NCBI RefSeq assembly: GCF_902498745.1
Contig: NZ_LR701479.1
Span: 872,292-936,291, forward strand
Reading direction: 5' to 3'
From: Erythrobacter sp. EC-HK427
GTDB lineage: Bacteria > Pseudomonadota > Alphaproteobacteria > Sphingomonadales > Sphingomonadaceae
Length of the DNA stretch: 64,000 bases
The translations under genes were made by a program, and so were the position numbers. Below, piece after piece: positions 26,563 through 36,246 of this stretch. The notes beneath the pieces were generated by a model. That model was given only the letters and a program-made list of their open reading frames with translations, was not told where the DNA came from and made no database searches. The first letter of the stretch is position 1. Each line of letters begins with the position of its first letter.

Positions 26563-27263
26563 TCGGCGCAGGCTTCTCGTAGGCTTTGCGCGGCTGTGGC
26601 ATGGCCCTCGGCTTCGTATTGCGCGGCAATGCGGGTCAGGCGCGGGCAATCGAGGGCGGCGTCCTGCTCGCCTGCCAGCGCCATCGTGGCGGCAAAATCG
26701 TCGGGTGCGGCGGCATTGGACAAGGCATCCGGAACCTGCCTCTGCCAATGCCCTGCCTTGGCAAAGCGCGTGGCAAAGGCAGCGCGGCCCTCTGCGGTCG
26801 AGACAAGCTGCGCCGCATACAGGCTCGCCCCTTCCCCCTCGCCAATCGCATAAAGCGCGGCGATGCGCATGGCGGCGATATCGTGCGCACCTTGGGCAAT
26901 GGCGGCGGCCGCCCCCGCCTGCTGCGCCAGCGGATCGCGCCAGCCGCGCTGCATCGCCAGTTCGAGCGCGGCGCGCGAGCGTTCCTCCTCACCCGCCATC
27001 GCTGCGGCGACGGCGAACAGGCCGAGATGCTCGGCGGGCAAAGGGCGGCGGGCGAGCAAGGCTTGGGCCTCGGCCAAAGCGTCCTCGCCATCCTGCGCCG
27101 CGATGGCGTGGCGCGTGCGCTGCTCTGCAGCAAAGCCGGAGAAAGCAGGCGGCACCGCGCCTGCCAATTGGGGCGCGAAACGCGCTGTGCGGTCAAGCTG
27201 CGCAAAGCCCGCCACCAGCGCCAAGCCTGCCAGCGCCAGCCAGAAGAGAAGGCGCCTCATCAC
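26559..27263 (-). CDS. Membrane-anchored TPR-like protein of unknown function
   Basis: A 234-residue protein with one N-terminal hydrophobic segment (LLFWLALAGLALVAGF) and an Ala-rich helical remainder in pairs of helices, as in TPR or Sel1-type repeats. No catalytic motif is visible. It starts inside the stop codon of the O-antigen-ligase-like gene (ATGA overlap) and is probably a partner of that enzyme; small TPR proteins often accompany Wzy/ligase genes. Function not established. Confidence 0.6.
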   Translation of the reverse strand: MMRRLLFWLALAGLALVAGFAQLDRTARFAPQLAGAVPPAFSGFAAEQRTRHAIAAQDGEDALAEAQALLARRPLPAEHLGLFAVAAAMAGEEERSRAALELAMQRGWRDPLAQQAGAAAAIAQGAHDIAAMRIAALYAIGEGEGASLYAAQLVSTAEGRAAFATRFAKAGHWQRQVPDALSNAAAPDDFAATMALAGEQDAALDCPRLTRIAAQYEAEGHATAAQSLREACAD

Positions 27264-28561
27264 CGTTCAGCCTCCCGCGCCCGCACCAGCAGCACGACGA
27301 GCACCGCACCCATGCAGAGCATAGTCTGGTTGCGCAGCGGGTAATCGAGCAGCGATTGCAGCGCGATGGCGGCCAGCCCCGCCCCCGCGCCCAGCCTCAG
27401 CCAAGTGCCTTGCGGGGAACCACCGCGCAGGCTCGCCCGCGCAATCCAGAGCAGCCAGCCCAGCGCGATCAGCAGGGCGGGAACTCCGCCCTCGATAGCG
27501 ATTTCCAGCCAGTCGCTATGCGCTCTGCCTGCCTTGCGCGGCGAGACGTGTTCGAGCGATTCGTGCAGCTGGAACACCTCGTCAAACGTCCCCATCCCGC
27601 TACCGACCGGCGCATAGAAGCGCGCTGCGTAAACACTGTCTTCCCACATTTCAGGCCGGTCGCTCGCTCCGCCTGCAAACCGGTCAAGACTTGTGGCGAG
27701 ACGGCTTTCGCCGCTCACTGTGAGCGCCATCGCGCCTGCACCCAGCACGCCCGCGCCCAGCAACAGCGCCGCAATCGGGGCCAGCGGCCTGCCCGTCATG
27801 CGTTTGGCGAGGATCAGCCGCAGCGCCAGCACCAGTACGGGAAGCGCGAGCAGTGCCATGCCCGAACGCGATTGGGTGAGCACCACGGCGACGGCAAACA
27901 GGGCCCCCGCTCCACCCCAGGCCCAGCGGCACAGCACATGGCGCGGCCATGGCAGCGCGGCGAGTAGCGTGAGCGCGGTCACAAATAGCAGTGCGGTCGA
28001 ATTGCGATTGGCGAAGGTCGCGTAGAACACATCGGCGCGCGGGCGCTCGGCATACAGCAGGCCGATGGCATTGCCCGAGAGCAGTTGCATCGCGCCCAGC
28101 GCGAATGCCGCAACGCAGCCCCAGAGCAGCGTGTGCGCCAGCGCCAGCTTGTCCTCGCGCGGCAACGCACTGCCCAGGATGATAATCGTCGCCGGAGCCA
28201 GCGTCCCGCAAAAAGCCACCAGCGTGCGCATCGGGTCAAGGCTGAGGGGAAACCAGCGCGCGCCAAGCTCTGCCAGCGCGAAACTCTCTGCCACAGCGCC
28301 GCGCCCCGGCAAGGCCTGCCACAACGCGGGCGGCAGCGGCAGCAATTGCAGCAGCGGCAGCGCCAGCGTTGCCAGCACCAGCGCCCGCAGTCCCCAAGGC
28401 GCAGTCCGGACGAAACCGGCAACGCGCTGCGGATGGGCAGCCAGCACACCGAGCGCCAGCAGCTGGATCGCCAGATTGCGCAGTCCATAGGCAACGCCAC
28501 CGCCGCCAAGCAGCAGCGCAGCGACACATAAAAGCTGGAGATGGAACCGGGCCGAGCGCAC
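27260..28561 (-). CDS. O-antigen ligase/polymerase-like membrane protein
   Basis: A 433-residue protein with 10-12 transmembrane segments. The central ligase-type region has LTQSRSGMALLALPVLVL and a large periplasmic loop containing GSGMGTFDEVFQ and AHSDWLEIAIEGG, the RG/H-type signature of the O-antigen ligase family (PF04932). It would join lipid-linked glycan units to an acceptor or to each other. GTG at 28561 (or TTG at 28564) is the only reasonable start. It lies apart from the polysaccharide locus and is coupled to a TPR-like gene downstream. Its substrate is unknown. Confidence 0.75.
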   Translation of the reverse strand: MRSARFHLQLLCVAALLLGGGGVAYGLRNLAIQLLALGVLAAHPQRVAGFVRTAPWGLRALVLATLALPLLQLLPLPPALWQALPGRGAVAESFALAELGARWFPLSLDPMRTLVAFCGTLAPATIIILGSALPREDKLALAHTLLWGCVAAFALGAMQLLSGNAIGLLYAERPRADVFYATFANRNSTALLFVTALTLLAALPWPRHVLCRWAWGGAGALFAVAVVLTQSRSGMALLALPVLVLALRLILAKRMTGRPLAPIAALLLGAGVLGAGAMALTVSGESRLATSLDRFAGGASDRPEMWEDSVYAARFYAPVGSGMGTFDEVFQLHESLEHVSPRKAGRAHSDWLEIAIEGGVPALLIALGWLLWIARASLRGGSPQGTWLRLGAGAGLAAIALQSLLDYPLRNQTMLCMGAVLVVLLVRAREAER

Positions 28562-28588
28562 CAAGGGTCAGGTCACGCGCGGCGGCGC

Positions 28589-28879
28589 TCAGCCACCCGT
28601 GCCGGGCGATGCATTATCGCCGGGGCCGTCATCTTCCTCGACATCGCCGCCCAGCGCGAACAGCGCGCCGCCCAGAATGCCAAGGCCAATCAGGAATACT
28701 TCCCACGGCATGCGTCCGGGGAGCAGGAAATCCTCTTCGTCGGGGATCAGGGGCGACCAGCCAGTCGCGCCCAGCGAGATCGCGGCATCGACCGCACGGG
28801 TATTGTCCTGCGCGGCAACGGCAATGGGCGTCACAGCAAGGCTGATGGCAGCCATTCCGGCGATTGCATTCCTGATCAT
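28589..28879 (-). CDS. Small exported protein with C-terminal membrane segment
   Basis: A 96-residue protein with a Sec signal peptide (cut near AVAAQD), a short soluble part and one hydrophobic segment (WEVFLIGLGILGGALFALGG), ending in an acidic Gly/Pro tail. AGGAGG lies seven bases before the ATG at 28879. Similar small proteins with a predicted lumenal stretch and a glycine-rich helix are frequent in sphingomonads, but I cannot name a family. It lies between the O-ligase-like gene and the divergent lasso-like locus. Confidence 0.6.
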   Translation of the reverse strand: MIRNAIAGMAAISLAVTPIAVAAQDNTRAVDAAISLGATGWSPLIPDEEDFLLPGRMPWEVFLIGLGILGGALFALGGDVEEDDGPGDNASPGTGG

Positions 28880-29053
28880 CTCCAGCCTCCTGCTGCCACT
28901 TGCTCGCGAAATTAGGGCAAATCCGCTATGTCCGCAATGCGCATAGCAGATCGCGCCTAACATTTCGCCAAGGCAGCGGTAAATTGCTGTCACCCTCTTG
29001 CGCCAATCACACTGGCGTAAATGCCGCTCCTGCGTGCTATAGATGGCGCCGCC

Positions 29054-29914
29054 ATGTCCCAGCCGCTGAGCCAACGCCTGCAAGATCCCGCTTATCGCGA
29101 CGCGCATCTGTGCGCCGCGCTGGTGCTGCGGCAGGAGGCGCGGCTGGCTTGGTATGACAGCTTTTTCCTGCGCCGTTTCGCCTTGGCGCGCCGCTTTCTC
29201 GAGGTGCATTCGCCCGGCGAAGTTGCGCGCTTTGTGGAAGGCTTCGCGCCGCTCCAGCCGCCGCCGGATGTCGCACCGTCCCTGCTGCCCGCATTGTTCG
29301 ACGCGGCTCAGCAAAAAGCTATCATGGAGGAAGTCGCCGCGATCCGCCCTGATGCGCTGGAAACACACGAGATTGCCGCGTTTGGCCGCCACGTGGTGCA
29401 CGATCACCCGCCGTTTCTCGCTTTGCAGCGCGCGCTTCTGCCCAAGGTAAGCGCGCTAGTCGGCTGCGAGCTTGCCTTGGGCTACAATTTCCTCAGCCTC
29501 TACGGGCCGACGGGGCGCTGCGATCCGCATATGGACCAGCCGCTCTCGATGTATACGCTCGATTATTGCATCGCGCAGAATGTGCGCTGGCCGATCCGGT
29601 TCAGCAGGCGGATCGATTGGATGGACGTGGCGCAGCGCCCCGCTTCGCCACAAGATGTGCTGGACGATCCGGCGCTGGACTTCACCCCTTACGAACTGGG
29701 CCAGAATGACGCGCTGCTGTTCTGCGGCAGCGCGCAATGGCATTACCGCGAGGCGATGCCGCCGGGCGGTTACAGCCATCTGCTTTTCTTCCATTACTAT
29801 CCGGCGGGGTGCGAGGCGCTGGTCAATCCGGCGCAGTGGCCTGCCCATTTCGGCCTGCCGCAATTACAGGCGCTGCTCGATCTGCTCGACGATCCGCAGG
29901 TCTATGGCGGATAG
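29054..29914 (+). CDS. Putative Fe(II) dioxygenase of the lasso-like locus
   Basis: A 286-residue protein. A helical N-terminal half precedes a cupin-like core with HMD (His159, Asp161) in GRCDPHMDQPLSMYTLD and a distal His230 in GSAQWHYREAMPPGG, the facial triad arrangement of 2OG-Fe(II) oxygenases. It stops seven bases before the cyclase-like gene, so it is the first gene of that transcript and could hydroxylate the precursor peptide. It is not a B2 leader peptidase: the transglutaminase-type Cys-His-Asp pattern is absent. The assignment rests on the HxD...H motif and position only. Confidence 0.55.
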   Translation: MSQPLSQRLQDPAYRDAHLCAALVLRQEARLAWYDSFFLRRFALARRFLEVHSPGEVARFVEGFAPLQPPPDVAPSLLPALFDAAQQKAIMEEVAAIRPDALETHEIAAFGRHVVHDHPPFLALQRALLPKVSALVGCELALGYNFLSLYGPTGRCDPHMDQPLSMYTLDYCIAQNVRWPIRFSRRIDWMDVAQRPASPQDVLDDPALDFTPYELGQNDALLFCGSAQWHYREAMPPGGYSHLLFFHYYPAGCEALVNPAQWPAHFGLPQLQALLDLLDDPQVYGG

Positions 29915-29920
29915 CTGCCG

Positions 29921-31789
29921 ATGAGCGGGATTGCGGCGATGTTCCGCGCCGATGGCGGGCCGGTCGATGCCGCCGTGCTGGAGGCTATGGCGGGGGCCAT
30001 GTCCTATCGCGGCCTGACGGGCAGAAGCGGGGGCGGAACCGCGATGCTCGCCCATGCCGGGGAAGTCGGCCCCGCGTCGCAAACCCGCTTCCACATTGCC
30101 TTTGACGGCTATCTGCTCAACGGGCCGGAGTTGCGACGCGAGCTGGCGGAGCGCGGAGTGCACCTGCCCGGCACCAGCGATGCCGAAACGGCGCTGCACG
30201 CCTTTTCGCAGTGGGATGAGGCGGCGCTGGCGCGGTTCGAAGGCGAATTCGCACTGGTGATCTGGGATGCGCAGGAGCACCGCCTCACCTGCGCGCGCGA
30301 CCATCTGGGCCTGCGCCCGCTGTGCTGGCATTGGGACGGAAGGCAGCTGCTGGTCGCCTCGGATATCGCTGCGATCATTGCGGCGATGCCCGAACACCCG
30401 CCGATCAATACCGGCTATATGGCAGAGCATCTCGCCAATTGCTGGTACACGCAGGATGAAACCGTGTGGCAAGGCGTCAACAAGCTGCGGCCCGCGCATT
30501 GGCTGGCGTTTGCACAGGGGGGCAGCACCCCCGCGATCCGCGAATATTGGACGCTGCCGACCGGGGTGACGATCCGCTATGCAAGCGATGCGGACTATGT
30601 AGAGCACTATCTCGCGCTGCTAGACGAAGTGGTGCGCGGCGCGGCCACCAGCGATGCGCCGGTTGCTGCCGAAGTCAGCGGCGGGCTCGATTCCTCGGCC
30701 ATTTTCGCGCTGGCAGCGAAGTCGCAGCAAGACGGCGCGCTGGCTGCGCCCGGCCTCCACGGTTTCGCCCTGCGCGGCCATCCGGGCGACTATTCGGACG
30801 AAATCGCCCATGCCCGCAGCGTTGCCGCGCATTGGGGGCATGGATTAACCGAATGCGCGCTGTTCGAACCATCGCTCGACTGGTTTTGTGAGCAAGGGCG
30901 CAACGATGCCACGCTGGCTTTTGCTCCCAATGCGGCAATGATGGCGGGCCTGCACGCAGCGATGGCAGAGGCGGGTGTGCGCGTCTGCCTCAACGGGCAT
31001 GGCGGCGATGTCTGGCTCAATGGCAGCAATGCGCAGTTCAACCAGACGCTGCGGCTGCGCGACTGGAGCGGGGCTGCACGCAGCCTGGCGGCTGACCGGC
31101 GCGATTTCGGTGCGGCCTATGCGCTGCGCAAGGGTGTGCGGCAGGGCTTGGGGCTGATTGCTCCGACAGCCGCCAAACGGGTGCTGCGCCGCATCGAAGC
31201 ACAAGCGCCGCACCCGCTCGAAACGCTGTTCTGGTTGAGCGAGGAAGCCAAGCAGGCGCTGGCGGAGCGGCGCGCGCGCTTTGAAGCGGAGCTGGAAGCC
31301 GCACCGGAACACGAGCGACACAAGCTGGCGCGGCTGAAGGAACCCTTCACCGTGCTCGTCAACGAAATCACCAATCTGATGGCCGCGAAACAGAGCATCG
31401 AATATCGCAGCCCGATGCAGTCGCGGCGCTTTGTCGAATTTTGCGCGGCGACGCCTGAACATCTGAAACGGCGCGGAAAGCTGCGCAAATGGCTCCACCG
31501 CGAGGCGATGCGCGGCATTCTGCCCGAAAGCGTGCGGATGCGCGGCGACAAGGCCTTTTTCGATTCCACCTTCCGCCGACTGCAAGGCGAAACCCGCGCC
31601 TACTGCTCGCAACACATGGCGGCCAAACCCTTCGCCGAACTGGTTCGCGCAGACGGCGTGGAGGCGCTCTTCAGGCAATTTTACGCCGCAGAAATTGACG
31701 CAGGGGCCATTTGGGAGCTATGGGGAGCGTTCTCCAGCGTAGCGTTTTGCCGCGATTTTGCGGCTCCAGAGCAGGAACAGGTGCAATGA
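29921..31789 (+). CDS. Lasso-cyclase-like asparagine synthetase homologue (C protein)
   Basis: A 622-residue homologue of asparagine synthetase B. The N-terminal class II glutaminase fold is kept, but the protein starts Met-Ser-Gly-Ile where active enzymes have Met-Cys-Gly-Ile, so the nucleophile Cys2 is missing and glutamine cannot be hydrolysed. The synthetase half keeps the ATP pyrophosphate loop SGGLDSS at about residues 253-259. This combination is typical of lasso-peptide macrolactam synthetases, which activate an Asp or Glu side chain as the AMP ester and close the ring with the core N-terminus. The stop codon overlaps the precursor gene by ATGA. Confidence 0.8.
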   Translation: MSGIAAMFRADGGPVDAAVLEAMAGAMSYRGLTGRSGGGTAMLAHAGEVGPASQTRFHIAFDGYLLNGPELRRELAERGVHLPGTSDAETALHAFSQWDEAALARFEGEFALVIWDAQEHRLTCARDHLGLRPLCWHWDGRQLLVASDIAAIIAAMPEHPPINTGYMAEHLANCWYTQDETVWQGVNKLRPAHWLAFAQGGSTPAIREYWTLPTGVTIRYASDADYVEHYLALLDEVVRGAATSDAPVAAEVSGGLDSSAIFALAAKSQQDGALAAPGLHGFALRGHPGDYSDEIAHARSVAAHWGHGLTECALFEPSLDWFCEQGRNDATLAFAPNAAMMAGLHAAMAEAGVRVCLNGHGGDVWLNGSNAQFNQTLRLRDWSGAARSLAADRRDFGAAYALRKGVRQGLGLIAPTAAKRVLRRIEAQAPHPLETLFWLSEEAKQALAERRARFEAELEAAPEHERHKLARLKEPFTVLVNEITNLMAAKQSIEYRSPMQSRRFVEFCAATPEHLKRRGKLRKWLHREAMRGILPESVRMRGDKAFFDSTFRRLQGETRAYCSQHMAAKPFAELVRADGVEALFRQFYAAEIDAGAIWELWGAFSSVAFCRDFAAPEQEQVQ

Positions 31790-31917
31790 AGCAACCCATG
31801 GCGAAAAAGGCCCGGTACGAGCGCCCCGTGCTCACCGTTTTCGGCAGCGTCCGCAACCTGACGGGTGGCAGCGGCGGCATGCTCAACGGCGACAGCACCT
31901 CGATGGATATGCTCTAG
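31786..31917 (+). CDS. Lasso-peptide-like RiPP precursor (A peptide)
   Basis: A 43-residue peptide, translationally coupled to the cyclase-like gene (ATGA). The leader carries YERPVLTVFG then SVRNLTG, matching the lasso leader pattern YxxPxLxxxG bound by PqqD-type proteins, with a Thr at the penultimate leader position (Thr26). Cutting after Gly27 gives the core GSGGMLNGDSTSMDML: Gly1 and Asp9 are ideally placed for a nine-residue isopeptide ring with a seven-residue tail. Ring, tail and cut site are inferred. An internal ATG at 31798 would give a shorter leader. Confidence 0.8.
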   Translation: MKQPMAKKARYERPVLTVFGSVRNLTGGSGGMLNGDSTSMDML

Positions 31918-31949
31918 GCTCTCTGGGTGCGGGCAAGAAAGCTGACAAG

Positions 31950-31976
31950 AGAGCGCCTGCGGGCGCTCTTTTTGTT
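31950..31976 (+). terminator. Rho-independent terminator/attenuator after the precursor gene
   Basis: An 8-bp stem (AGAGCGCC at 31950-31957, GGCGCTCT at 31962-31969) with a four-base loop is followed by a run of T (31969-31973) and GTTGG. It lies 33 bases after the precursor stop and before the methyltransferase gene. Partial read-through here would make the precursor mRNA more abundant than the tailoring-enzyme mRNA. Confidence 0.85.
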
Positions 31977-32023
31977 GGCCCGGTCTGTTCCTCGCACCGG
32001 CATTGTGCAAAGAACGCATCGCC

Positions 32024-32971
32024 ATGCCCTCGGTGCTCAACGAACATTACCGCTATCTTACGCTGGCAAAGCGCAACGCCGCCTATGCGCGTGCGCTGGG
32101 CGAGGTGGTGCAACCGGGCGACGTGGTGGCCGATCTGGGCAGCGGGTTCGGCATATTGGGCATGCTCGCACTGGAAGCCGGGGCAAAGCACTGTCACGGC
32201 ATAGACCAGACCGCCGCCATCGAAATCGCCCGCGAGACCATGCGGCGCGAAGGGCTGGCAGACCGCTTCACCGCCATGCGCGGCTCCACCTTCGAGACCG
32301 ATTTGCCCACGCCCGTAGACCTGCTGGTGTGCGACCATATCGGCTATTTCGGCTTCGATTACGGGATCATCGCGATGCTCGCCGATGCGCGCAAACGGAT
32401 GCTGAAAGCGGGCGGGCGGATCATGCCGCAAAGCATGGATATGCATATCGCGCTCGCCGAAAGCCCGTTCTTGCGCGACAAGGCGGCGCGCTGGGACGTG
32501 CCCGGAATGCCGCCTGCCTTTGGCTGGCTGCGCGAATATGAAGCCAATGCGATCCACTCGCACCGCTTTCCCGCAGAAGCGATGCTCAGCGGCCCTGCGA
32601 CCATCGCCACCGTCGATTTCCGCGAGGATGCCCCCGACCTCTTTACTTTCAAGGACACGCTGACCGCCACGCGCGACGGGGTGGTGGACGGGATTTGCGG
32701 CTTTTTCGCCGCGGCGCTCTGCGACACGGTCAGTATGACCAACAGCCCGTTTGCTGCCGACGCTATCGGGCGGGCCAATGCCTTTTTGCCATGCCGCACG
32801 CCCTTTGCCGTGCGCGCAGGCGATGCCATCGCGGTGAGCCTTTCGATCCGCCATGATCCGCGCATCGTCAACTGGACGATCACGCCTCCCGAAGGTGGAG
32901 AGAAGCAGGCAATGTCGACCTGGCATTCGCAGATCCTCTCCAGCGAAGGGCTGGGCATGGCCGGGGCATGA
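32024..32971 (+). CDS. PRMT-like SAM-dependent methyltransferase of the lasso-like locus
   Basis: A 315-residue class I methyltransferase. Motif I is VADLGSGFGILGMLALEAGA (from about residue 35), close to the protein arginine methyltransferase form. The C-terminal half is beta-rich, as in the PRMT barrel. The region equivalent to the PRMT double-E loop reads CDHIGYFGFDYG, with Asp104 and Asp112 where PRMTs have Glu, so arginine may not be the target. The ATG at 32024 is chosen over a TTG at 32003. Its stop overlaps the kinase-like gene (ATGA). It is a candidate tailoring enzyme for the precursor, but methylation of another substrate is possible. Confidence 0.72.
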   Translation: MPSVLNEHYRYLTLAKRNAAYARALGEVVQPGDVVADLGSGFGILGMLALEAGAKHCHGIDQTAAIEIARETMRREGLADRFTAMRGSTFETDLPTPVDLLVCDHIGYFGFDYGIIAMLADARKRMLKAGGRIMPQSMDMHIALAESPFLRDKAARWDVPGMPPAFGWLREYEANAIHSHRFPAEAMLSGPATIATVDFREDAPDLFTFKDTLTATRDGVVDGICGFFAAALCDTVSMTNSPFAADAIGRANAFLPCRTPFAVRAGDAIAVSLSIRHDPRIVNWTITPPEGGEKQAMSTWHSQILSSEGLGMAGA

Positions 32972-33813
32972 GCGACGGATACGCGCTGGCCGATGCGCGC
33001 GGGCAGGATGTGCTGGCGGCCCTGCCCTATGACCGCTGGATCGCGGCGAGCGGCGAAGTCATGGCAGAGTTCCACCGTGACCCGGCGGGCTTTCGCGTGC
33101 GCTTTCCCGGCAATGCCGACTTCGTGGTCGCGGCGGAGACGCTGGCGGTCCGCTGCGAACCCGTGCCCGGTACGGCGCGGGCCGATTGCGATACTCTGTG
33201 GCACAATGCGATTGTCCCGCTGCTCGACAATCATCGCGGCGCGGTCAGCCTCCACGGCGCGGCCTGCCTGATGGGCGACAAAGCCGTCGGTTTTGTCGGC
33301 GCATCGCGGCAGGGCAAGACGACGCTGGCCGCCGCCTGCGCGCTAGCGGGGCATCCGTTTCTGGCGGAGGATGCCATCCGGCTGGAAGGCAACGCCGCGC
33401 CTTACCGCGTGCTGCCGGCACGGCCGCTGCTGCGGCTGTTTGCGGATAGCGCGGCGCGGCTGTTGCCCGATGCTGGCGGCGCGCCGGAAGGCACGGACAA
33501 GCTAGACCTCGCCGCGTCGCACCGCTTACCGCACCACGCACACCCCGCCGGTCTGCGCGCGATTTACCTGCTGGGCGAGAATCGCGAAGGCCCGCCCGCC
33601 TTCACCCGCCTCGGCCAGCAGGCGGCGCTCGCCGAACTGATGCGCCATGCCTTTATCCTCGATATCGAGGACAAGCCGCGCCTCGCCGCGCATTTTGACC
33701 GGCTGGCGCGACTGGCGGGGACTGTGCCGATGATCCGCCTCGATTATCCGAGGCGATTTGATTGCCTAAGCAATGTCGTCGAACGGCTGGCGGAAGATGC
33801 GGCGAGCCGCTAG
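32968..33813 (+). CDS. HPr-kinase-like P-loop protein of the lasso-like locus
   Basis: A 281-residue protein with a fold like the catalytic domain of HPr kinase/phosphorylase. HGAACLMGDKAVGFVGASRQGKTT includes the P-loop at residues 111-119, and LAEDAIRLE is the downstream Asp motif. HprK-like enzymes occur in paeninodin-type lasso clusters, where the family member phosphorylates a Ser of the peptide. Here the core tail offers Ser10, Thr11 and Ser12 but no C-terminal Ser. The canonical P-loop GxxGxGK is changed to GASRQGK. The gene is coupled to the methyltransferase gene and followed by the PqqD-like gene after ten bases. Confidence 0.75.
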   Translation: MSDGYALADARGQDVLAALPYDRWIAASGEVMAEFHRDPAGFRVRFPGNADFVVAAETLAVRCEPVPGTARADCDTLWHNAIVPLLDNHRGAVSLHGAACLMGDKAVGFVGASRQGKTTLAAACALAGHPFLAEDAIRLEGNAAPYRVLPARPLLRLFADSAARLLPDAGGAPEGTDKLDLAASHRLPHHAHPAGLRAIYLLGENREGPPAFTRLGQQAALAELMRHAFILDIEDKPRLAAHFDRLARLAGTVPMIRLDYPRRFDCLSNVVERLAEDAASR

Positions 33814-33823
33814 AATACAGCGC

Positions 33824-34102
33824 ATGGCCGACACTCCAAGCATCGCCGTCAAGGACACGATCGTCGCCCGCGAAGTTGGCGGAGAAATGGTACTGCTCGA
33901 TCTCGAAGCGGGCACCTATTTCGGGCTCAACGCGGTAGGTGCGCGGATCTGGGCGGCGTTGGGAGAAGCACCGCAAACGCAGGCCGCCCTCACCACATTG
34001 ATTGCTGCCGAATTCGATGCGGAGGAGGCGGTGATCGCGCAGGATATCGCCGCGCTGCTTGCCGATTTGCAGACCAACGGGCTGGTAGACATCACCGCCT
34101 AG
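33824..34102 (+). CDS. PqqD-like RiPP recognition element protein (B1)
   Basis: A 92-residue PqqD-family protein: beta strands in EVGGEMVLLDLEAGTYFGLNAVG and a helical C-terminus (DIAALLADLQTNGLV) form the winged-helix RRE fold that binds the leader peptide. In lasso systems this B1 protein presents the leader to the B2 protease and cyclase. It matches the YxxPxLxxxG leader of the 43-residue precursor. It is the last gene of the methyltransferase-kinase-B1 set. Its last 11 bases overlap the 3' end of the convergent nucleotidyltransferase gene. Confidence 0.82.
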   Translation: MADTPSIAVKDTIVAREVGGEMVLLDLEAGTYFGLNAVGARIWAALGEAPQTQAALTTLIAAEFDAEEAVIAQDIAALLADLQTNGLVDITA

Positions 34103-35252
34103 GAACAAGCCGCCGCCACAGCGCGCTGCCGATCCTGCGCAAGCGCAAGGCGGTGAGCGGCCAGCGCGCCATGCCGGGATATTTGTCGCTGAGAAAGGCA
34201 CGACTGGGCAGCAGCGCGGCGCGCAGCACCTCCTTGCGCTGCGCCCAGCCATCCGCATTGGCCCAATTCGCGCGCAGATGCTCCCAGCCGTCCTTGTGGA
34301 AGACAAAGCGGTCGATCGCCCCGCCGTCACCCGCAGCCCGCAGCATCGCTAGAATTTGGGCTGGCACCGGGGCGGCGAAATCGTGCTGCGCTGCCTCTAT
34401 CGCTCGCAGAGCGACCAGAGCGGCCCCGCGCTCCATCGCCAGCTGCGCCAGCGCGCGCCACGCCTCCTCGTCAAAGGCATTCGCCTGCAACGCCGTGCCG
34501 TAAGACCATGCGAGGCGGCACGAACCGCGCCGGTACGCGCCTTCCACCAGATAACCCGATCGCGCGTGCAGCGCCTGGTTGAGCGCATCATTGAGGAACG
34601 TGCGCAGCGGATCGGTGGCGCGCGCCGTGGGCGAAAGGCGCGGCAGCGGCACCGCATGCGCCAGCGCTTCGGCGGGCGAAAACAGCGTTGCTGCCGCCGG
34701 AGCCGAGGCGCTATGCCAGTGCAGATCGAACTGGTGTGCAAAGCCGCTGGCTGTCTTGTCCAGCCAGATCTCCTGCATCGTGCCCGGCAGATCGAGTGTC
34801 AGCCCGAGCGACGCGAGCACATTGCGCGCCGCCGCCGCTTGCCCGGGCGTCACCAGCAGATCGCTATCCCCGCGCCGCCGCAGCGCGGGATCGGGATAGA
34901 CGCTGTAGGCGAGCGCGCTGCCCTTGGTCACCAGCACCTCAACGCCGCCCGCCGCCAGTGCATCGAGAACGCGGACGAGGCGCGCCTTGTGCGAGGCTTC
35001 CCACAGCGCCTGCAAGCGCGCTTCCTCCAGCAGCCGCGCGCGCAGAGCATCCGGCCAATCGGCGCAGCTGTTCCCCGCCTCGACAATCGCCAGCGCGCAG
35101 CCGTGAAAGGCAATGGCCTGCCAAGCAGCCTCGCTTTGGCCATCGTCCCAAGCGGGAAAGGGCCAAGGAGCCTCTCCCACCATTGCCCTCGCCAGAAAGC
35201 TGCGAAGCTCGGTCTCGCCGAAATCGTCAGTCACGGGCGCGCTTTGCTGCAT
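34092..35252 (-). CDS. Nucleotidyltransferase-fold protein (NTP_transf_5-like) beside the lasso-like locus
   Basis: A 386-residue protein with a nucleotidyltransferase core: [29 protein letters not shown] contains the GS and paired-Asp pattern (DSD) of the family, preceded by helices and followed by a His-rich strand (HQFDLHWH). Proteins of this type accompany many paeninodin-like lasso clusters, where their role is unclear. It lies on the opposite strand and converges on the PqqD-like gene with an 11-base overlap. The ATG at 35252 is preferred to a GTG one codon upstream. Confidence 0.75.
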
Positions 35253-35346
35253 CACCCAACCGATTGCGCGCGCCGCCCTGCGCTGTCAAATCTCCGCATC
35301 GGGTAACCTTCCCAGATTGTGTTTGACCCTCCCCGCCCGCGCTGCG

Positions 35347-36246
35347 ATGGATTCGCCCATGGCGAGCCAAGCGCGCAAGGGCATTATTCTGGCAGGCGGG
35401 AGCGGGAAGCGGCTCTATCCGCTGACGCGCGGGCTCTCCAAACAGCTGATGCCGGTGTTCGACAAGCCGATGATTTACTATCCGCTCAGCACGCTTATGC
35501 TGGCGGGCATTCGCGACATCCTCGTCATCACGTCCCCCGAAGACCAGGCGCAATTCCGGGCGATGCTTGGCGACGGATCGGATTTCGGCGTGGCGCTCTC
35601 TTACGCCGTCCAGCCAAAGCCCGAGGGGCTGGCGCAGGCCTTCCATATCGGCGCGAATTTCGTCGCGGGCGAGCCGAGCGCGCTCGTTTTGGGGGACAAT
35701 ATTTTCTACGGCCACGGCCTTGCGGGATTGCTGCAAAATGCCTCGGCGCAAGCGGCGGGCGGCACGGTGTTCGCTTACCGTGTGAGCAATCCTTCCGCCT
35801 ATGGCGTGGTGGAGTTTGACGCAGAAGGACGCGCGCGTTCCATCGAGGAAAAGCCCGCCGCCCCGAAGTCTTCCTACGCGGTCACTGGCCTCTATTTCTA
35901 TGACGACACGGTGGTCGAGCGCGCCCGTGCGCTTGTGCCCAGCGCGCGCGGAGAGCTGGAAATTACCGATCTCAACCGCTCCTATCTGGCAGATGGGGCG
36001 CTGTCGTTGGAGATCATGGGGCGCGGTTTTGCCTGGCTCGACACCGGCACCCACGCCTCGCTGCTCGATGCCGCCAGCTATGTGCGGATTACCGAGGAGC
36101 GGCAGGGGCTGAAGATCTGCTGCCCCGAAGAAATCGCGTGGCGGCAGGGCTTTATCGACGATGCGCAATTGGAAGCGATTGCCGCACCGCTTCGCTCGTC
36201 GGGCTATGGCGAATATCTGCTGGCGCTGCTGGCCGAGGGGCGCTGA
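35347..36246 (+). CDS. rmlA: Glucose-1-phosphate thymidylyltransferase
   Basis: A 299-residue enzyme making dTDP-glucose, the first step to dTDP-L-rhamnose. The nucleotide-binding N-terminus is [18 protein letters not shown], followed by [21 protein letters not shown] and the sugar-site segment [10 protein letters not shown]. An ATG at 35359 is an equally plausible start, since the family usually begins just before GIILAGG. It is the first gene of the rmlACDB set and of the polysaccharide locus, and it diverges from the nucleotidyltransferase gene. Confidence 0.95.

Follow-up and report, generated by a model that had tools for sequence, protein, structure and literature searches.

Can a lasso peptide be made and secreted from a locus that encodes neither a leader peptidase nor an exporter? 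The question is posed by positions 29054-35255 of the window (the whole stretch of 64,000 nucleotides analysed here), where a lasso-peptide-like locus had been predicted. The locus is real, with every named gene found in place and its frame intact: OX, C, A, MT, K and B1 follow one another on the forward strand and are met by a convergent N on the reverse strand.

Gene content of the locus

The genes and flanking features, in window coordinates, are as follows.

27260-28564 (-): O-antigen-ligase-like Wzy_C gene (Wzy_C, E 1.1e-17); left flank, also in relatives
29054-29914 (+): OX, 2OG-Fe(II) oxygenase-fold protein by predicted structure, with HxD (H159, D161) and H230
29921-31789 (+): C, lasso macrolactam cyclase; asparagine-synthetase fold, no Cys2, SGGLDSS ATP motif
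31786-31917 (+): A, 43-aa precursor, overlapping the cyclase stop (ATGA); leader residues 1-27 at 31786-31866, YxxPxL...GSVRNLTG
31867-31914 (+): predicted 16-aa core GSGGMLNGDSTSMDML, from alignment with relatives
31941-31979 (+): terminator-like hairpin with T run directly 3' of the precursor; presumed role
32024-32971 (+): MT (METHYLTRANSFERASE), PRMT-family protein with altered double-E loop, by profile and structure comparison
32968-33813 (+): K, putative HprK-like peptide kinase (weak TIGR04352 match), near C and B1 in most relatives
33824-34102 (+): B1, PqqD-like RiPP recognition element (PqqD, E 2.5e-18)
34092-35255 (-): N, nucleotidyltransferase, convergent (NTP_transf_5, E 2.4e-21)
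35359-36246 (+): rfbA-like nucleotidylyltransferase, named by eye from its sequence; right flank, syntenic in relatives

The domain matches of B1 and N bear out the PqqD-like protein and the nucleotidyltransferase of the original prediction. For the hairpin, the whole 68-nt stretch after the precursor gives a z value of -2.06, with 9 of 200 shuffles equally good. At 28589-28888 (-) lies a gene for a small protein, its N-terminus signal-like by eye, that adjoins Wzy_C in many relatives.

Paeninodin-type or BsfA-type lasso clusters, as outlined in a portion of PMC10368454, comprise A, B1, B2, C, D, a kinase and a nucleotidyltransferase. The window locus resembles them in having A, B1, C, a nucleotidyltransferase and a kinase candidate. 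Unlike the clusters outlined there, it is proteobacterial and lies beside polysaccharide genes, a PRMT-like methyltransferase and an oxygenase are added, and B2 and exporter are at another locus.

Cyclase, precursor and kinase

The cyclase matches Asn_synthase (E 1e-38) and begins M-S-G-I, so the amidotransferase Cys2 is absent, in agreement with its earlier description as a cyclase-like asparagine synthetase without this residue. Its best NCBIfam model is lass_lactam_cya, at E 1.5e-65 but below that model's own cut-off. The 43-residue precursor, first recognised by a lasso leader motif, scores 23.3 bits against lasso_leader_L3 (NF033521, cut-off 19), and no other frame of its genome exceeds the cut-off, two further matches falling below it. 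An alignment of 11 precursors, one from each of 11 genomes, shows no variation in the leader block VRNLTGGS.

The core GSGGMLNGDSTSMDML is preceded by Thr at -2, the position held by Ile in BsfA according to the relevant part of PMC10368454, and has Gly1 and an acid at position 9. The ring would thus run from G1 to D9, with a Met-x-Met tail; the computed lasso mass is 1553.616 Da.

A scan of named genomes with a single cyclase as query gave no match, and alignment A2 gave 79 loci from the best 80 of 193 matches, which together with the window and 26 relatives make up the 106 loci examined. Sixty-four distinct loci have precursor, K and B1, the remainder being duplicates or lacking one of these in the stretch covered. 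In all 64, which were searched for by the leader pattern itself, a leader of the VRNLTG type adjoins the cyclase, K and B1, and the ring acid, sought at core positions 7-11, lies at 7-9 (position 8 in 53, 9 in 10 and 7 in 1). Judged across these sequences, the conservation of the leader and its neighbourhood of cyclase, K and B1 exceed chance.

The call of K as an HprK-like kinase is plausible, though not proven: there is a Walker-A-like GASRQGKT (by eye), but the match to HprK_rel_A (TIGR04352; E 0.0037) stays sub-threshold.

The local B2 and exporter among relatives

Matches to NF033521 occur in 24 of 397 family genomes, not all of them at the window-type site, and a model of 11 precursors matches in 21 of 40 genus genomes. 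Both flanks (the Wzy_C gene and rfbA) are present at 21 of the 26 relatives' loci mapped. Nineteen of the 21 genus genomes were usable after exclusion of G410, where the locus runs into a contig end, and G416, where it is broken. The local B2 is kept in 13 of the 19 and missing in six: G000, which is the source genome, G103, G413, G405, G378 and G398. The local exporter is missing in 11, namely these six plus G359, G285, G408, G415 and G411, and kept in eight, counting as local the exporter of G402, ~5 kb away beyond Wzy_C. Six relatives outside the genus (G111, G121, G041, G260, G180 and G344) have both genes locally.

Genes for B2 and exporter are therefore found in close relatives and lost here, an outcome that the original prediction had named as counting against it; they were not simply lost, however, since the second site described below keeps both and the pattern recurs in other species.

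The position first taken for G285 from its NF033521 match showed no lasso gene, the real locus of this genome lying elsewhere. G317 and G356 were dropped as carriers after the regions examined gave no match to the reference genes.

A second lasso site in the source genome

A whole-genome search with PF13471 found two B2 genes, both outside the window and none in the lasso locus, and the one lasso-type exporter match in the whole genome is likewise outside the window. The absence of a transglutaminase-type B2 and of an adjacent exporter is thereby confirmed, and one of the two B2 genes lies beside the exporter. At this second site (~C2:3012838-3015061, about C2:3.013-3.016 Mb), B2 is located between a nucleotidyltransferase and an ABC exporter, flanked by an amidohydrolase and a PAS-LuxR gene, and no cyclase, kinase or B1 was found beside B2 and exporter. 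Along the contig, ~2.1 Mb separate this site from the window, or ~1 Mb if the contig is circular.

We then compared the genus genomes. The second-site exporter type (52% identity or more) occurs elsewhere in all 11 genomes without a local exporter, versus two of the eight with one (G251 at 60%, G403 at 52%; Fisher 0.001, or 0.006 without G397 and G407, which are each ~70% complete and make up two of the six negatives). It was found in none of the six relatives outside the genus and in three of 19 precursor-less genus genomes (G213, G399 and G409), six more matching at 31-33%; G213 and G399 have full second clusters, and the G409 contig ends too early for the second site to be read. A B2 lies beside the second-site exporter in six of six B2-less genomes, and no further B2 was found in five of them. 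Removal of the leader by an enzyme encoded elsewhere, one of the two possibilities first put forward, is thus supported by a PF13471 B2 beside an exporter at a second lasso site.

The source genome is the one with another candidate. Its second B2, at C2:3065449, is a solitary open frame with conserved Cys and His, and could remove the leader in place of the exporter-linked B2. We regard this as unlikely, as no lasso gene was found beside it, its branch is long (2.68), and the other five B2-less genomes show only the exporter-linked B2.

Complementary gene content of the two sites

A PAS-LuxR gene adjoins the second site in every mapped case but G403, and the amidohydrolase is present where that side was seen (G000, G103, G413, G405, G378, G398 and, in part, G359). 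The full second-site cluster (C, K, B1, B2 and exporter) is present in G405, G408, G359, G251, G213 and G399, the first five of which have a sulfotransferase-like gene (by eye) in the gap between K and B1. A search of the full second-site clusters L091, L092, L094, L172 and L174 found no recognisable precursor.

Eight second sites are without a cyclase. Five of them have B2 and exporter, with nothing else in G103, G413 and G398, with N in G000, and with N and B1 in G378; the other three have an exporter and no B2, this being all in G285 and G415 and accompanied by part of N in G411. The window-type loci of the first five are without B2 and exporter, and those of the last three are without the exporter only. 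The retained set is what the window-type locus misses in eight of eight cases, with no mismatch (Fisher for B2, 0.018). The full second sites of G405, G408, G359 and G251 do not discriminate between the readings.

G403 is outside this scheme. Its window-type locus is complete, and L178 (C29), which lacks a B2, combines C, K, B1 and N with an exporter of the second-site type; two B2 genes lie outside L178, one of them in a third cluster, L179. As the gene content of L178 indicates, B2-less clusters arise in another setting too.

Probable takeover, selection and remaining alternatives

Local and remote B2s form separate clades (support 98/94), and the Cys and His are retained in 33 of 33 B2 sequences. 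Given this separation, we rejected the idea of a local B2 that moved to the remote site, and the history looks like a takeover rather than a relocation. By a quick method, the absence of B2 takes three changes on the cyclase tree and that of the exporter two, so independent events are few and the counts among related genomes are not independent.

The local B2 of G408 (L128 6088-6651), a genome with a full remote cluster, has His-Ala-Leu for His-Ala-Trp and a long branch. Such divergence of its sequence suggests a gene turning dispensable.

Between G405 and G378, both without a local B2, pN/pS is 0.20-0.28 for C, A, MT, K and B1 and 0.34 for N, with 0.23 for the remote B2 and 0.17 for the remote exporter. 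As measured by this sequence comparison of the two genomes, purifying selection acts at both loci, and the low values of the remote pair may reflect G405's own full second cluster. For the remote B2 at the stripped sites of G103 and G413, pN/pS is 0.53, a weaker constraint.

These values bear on whether the pathway is dead, with B2 and exporter lost and the remaining genes decaying. G416 would be such a case, having a broken cyclase and, in its genome, no B2 and no such exporter found. For the window locus we consider decay very unlikely, given that all its frames are intact, that pN/pS is low in G405 and G378, relatives likewise without a local B2, and that the complement is kept at the second site.

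It is slightly less credible still that a housekeeping protease removes the leader, or that the leader is not needed. The pseudomycoidin study of Zyubko in 2019 reportedly describes synthesis without leader and leader peptidase, a precedent that nonetheless leaves unexplained why genomes without the local B2 retain one next to the exporter. Finally, K and N are loosely characterised, but that a locus protein not recognised as a peptidase cuts the precursor is scarcely conceivable, since every gene of the window locus also occurs in a relative with a standard local B2 (G359, for example) and no gene special to B2-less loci was found among those mapped; of the original interpretation, the enzyme encoded elsewhere is supported and the unrecognised local protein is not.

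Proposed pathway

In our view, the lasso locus very probably makes a tailored, probably phosphorylated GSGGMLNGDSTSMDML lasso peptide, with the second-site B2 and exporter acting in trans and the ancestral local pair lost once the second pair could serve both. The basis is the presence and absence of genes, the retained complement, the intact frames and the B2 Cys and His seen by comparison; from these we infer that the remote B2 cuts the window precursor, which way the loss went, how the steps follow one another and every modification.

Originally, the window-site cluster would have had a B2 and an exporter of its own. The pair of the second cluster would have become able to serve both, and the local copies would then have been lost. 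At present, B1 would bind and present the precursor, and MT, OX and K would modify it in linear form, as is the case for other lasso modifications covered in a section of PMC9266682. The remote B2 would cut after Gly27, C would close the ring from G1 to D9, and the remote ABC exporter would secrete the product. By their gene content, two lasso pathways appear to have merged into one.

Some elements have parallels. In the citrulassin pathway, as far as a portion of PMC12971885 relates, a tailoring deiminase is encoded outside the lasso cluster; the window pathway also has a part elsewhere in the genome, but here the outlying genes are those for leader peptidase and exporter, which seem to come from a second lasso cluster. 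Unclustered lanthipeptide proteases (discussed in part of PMC8960859) provide leader peptidases encoded away from the cluster, as in the window case. They belong to another RiPP class and other protease families and were linked by correlation over many genomes, unlike the complementary content of two lasso sites found here. Lasso/LPP pairs of Bacillota are two related RiPP pathways per cell that, in the account excerpted from PMC13381572, evolved to avoid interference; the window pathways are also two in one cell but appear merged.

If our reading is true, a RiPP pathway can remain functional after losing its leader peptidase and exporter by using the pair of a paralogous cluster, and genome mining bound to clusters would score such split loci as incomplete. 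For B1/B2 compatibility, the six species that lack a local B2 would be a natural test.

The source genome has one more cluster of C, K and B1 (L015 7256-12636; C2:93-99 kb), beside a recF-like gene and with a 2OG oxygenase (PF13640) and a weak sulfotransferase match. Its candidate precursor is MTKQTKTEAKRVWEAPTLTVVAMTSDVLGSIAMSTDEDFTGVPS, in which a core beginning at GSIA would put Val at -2, and no B2 or lasso exporter was found beside it. The remote B2 and exporter might serve this cluster instead or as well.

Methyltransferase, oxygenase and tail methionine

OX has no Pfam or NCBIfam match, and a sequence-only PDB search gave nothing credible. Its AlphaFold model (pLDDT 92, 15 sequences), on the other hand, matches 2OG-Fe(II) oxygenases in the PDB, including ALKBH6, BesD/HalD-type enzymes and prolyl hydroxylase, and all 15 aligned sequences share H159, D161 and H230. 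In its predicted structure, OX has the fold and the HxD...H of the 2OG-Fe(II) oxygenase superfamily, as anticipated when it was called a putative Fe(II) oxygenase.

The methyltransferase also holds up, as a PRMT relative by profile (PRMT1, E 5e-47) and by structure (PRMT3/CARM1, TM ~0.8). In the double-E loop of PRMTs, two Glu bind the guanidinium. The PRMT1 loop SEWMGYFLLYES aligns with CDHVGYFGFDYG of the MT profile and with CDHIGYFGFDYG in the window MT, where the first Glu is replaced by Asp and the second by Tyr. An arginine methyltransferase with this loop is therefore unlikely, and the core GSGGMLNGDSTSMDML contains no Arg. Like the MTs of L192 and L194, the window MT is without the ~52-aa C-terminal extension of most aligned relatives, which is PqqD-like by eye.

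Among the 64 distinct loci described above, with MT counted as present above 90 bits, a Met after the ring acid occurs in 35 of 38 loci with MT versus one of 26 without (Fisher 2e-13). Seven independent pairs taken across supported branches of the tree give a mean of 6.1 concordant and 0.1 opposite (median p 0.03). The exceptions are G400, G420 and L255, with MT and no tail Met, and G403, with a tail Met and no MT. The MT scores of G400 (101 bits), L255 (93 bits) and L213 (105 bits) are low, which fits the link as far as sequence scores go. OX was found only alongside MT, in 15 of the 15 loci with OX in this comparison.

From this association, MT may methylate methionine, although methylation of the C terminus instead is possible. 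Sulfonium methionine has a RiPP precedent in longipeptin A, reported in a part of PMC11285071. No report of an MT-methionine link or of lasso precursors with an S74 tail, the subject of the next section, was found among the matches listed from the open-licence PMC literature.

S74-tailed precursors in relatives

Near the cyclases of the window family examined (those from named genomes being the best 80 of 193 matches), 22 distinct leader-bearing precursors have a Peptidase_S74-like domain after the core: L023 (9928-10287), L063 (9712-10098), L126, L127, L128, L131, L135, L138, L140, L195, L197, L200, L213, L218, L222, L228, L235, L239, L240, L241, L248 and L253. The window precursor has no S74 domain. 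Hosts of the tailed forms include Sphingomonadaceae, Thiobacillaceae, Ramlibacter and Mesorhizobium. All ten precursors submitted to Pfam match the profile from its first position, as does that of G103. A core of normal length leads straight into the domain and its Ser/Lys dyad, and these cores are similar in length to unfused ones and often have the same Met-rich ends.

The endosialidase/MYRF intramolecular chaperone autocleavage domain (Peptidase_S74) has a self-cleaving dyad of Ser and Lys five apart, as set out in part of PMC3742443. The same spacing is present in 24 of 25 distinct S74-tailed frames near the cyclases examined, a count based on frames found by a block further into the domain, the other searches being biased by having the dyad in their pattern. 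L216 and L249 of these 25 are without the leader pattern used. Unlike in the MYRF and endosialidase account, the domain comes after a lasso core, and its conserved dyad indicates that the tail may be self-cleaving. No paper joining a lasso peptide with Peptidase S74, endosialidase or Aurantiacibacter was found in the open-licence PMC literature.

More tentatively, and with some doubt on our part, this could be a proteobacterial lasso family in which a PRMT-derived enzyme S-methylates the tail Met to a fixed-charge sulfonium, a self-cleaving S74 chaperone is a removable follower or stopper during ring closure, and, in Aurantiacibacter, two pathways were fused by reciprocal gene loss. The family offers two testable novelties: lasso precursors whose C-terminal domain may cut itself off, and a PRMT relative with methionine as a possible substrate.

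The one frame of the 25 that departs from the dyad spacing, L196 (8066-8500), is a separate S74-like frame that lacks the Ser and comes directly downstream of a precursor ending ahead of it, as though the fusion were on its way out. L226 and L253 come from two species of Mesorhizobium and have closely related cyclases, but only one of the two precursors carries the S74 tail.
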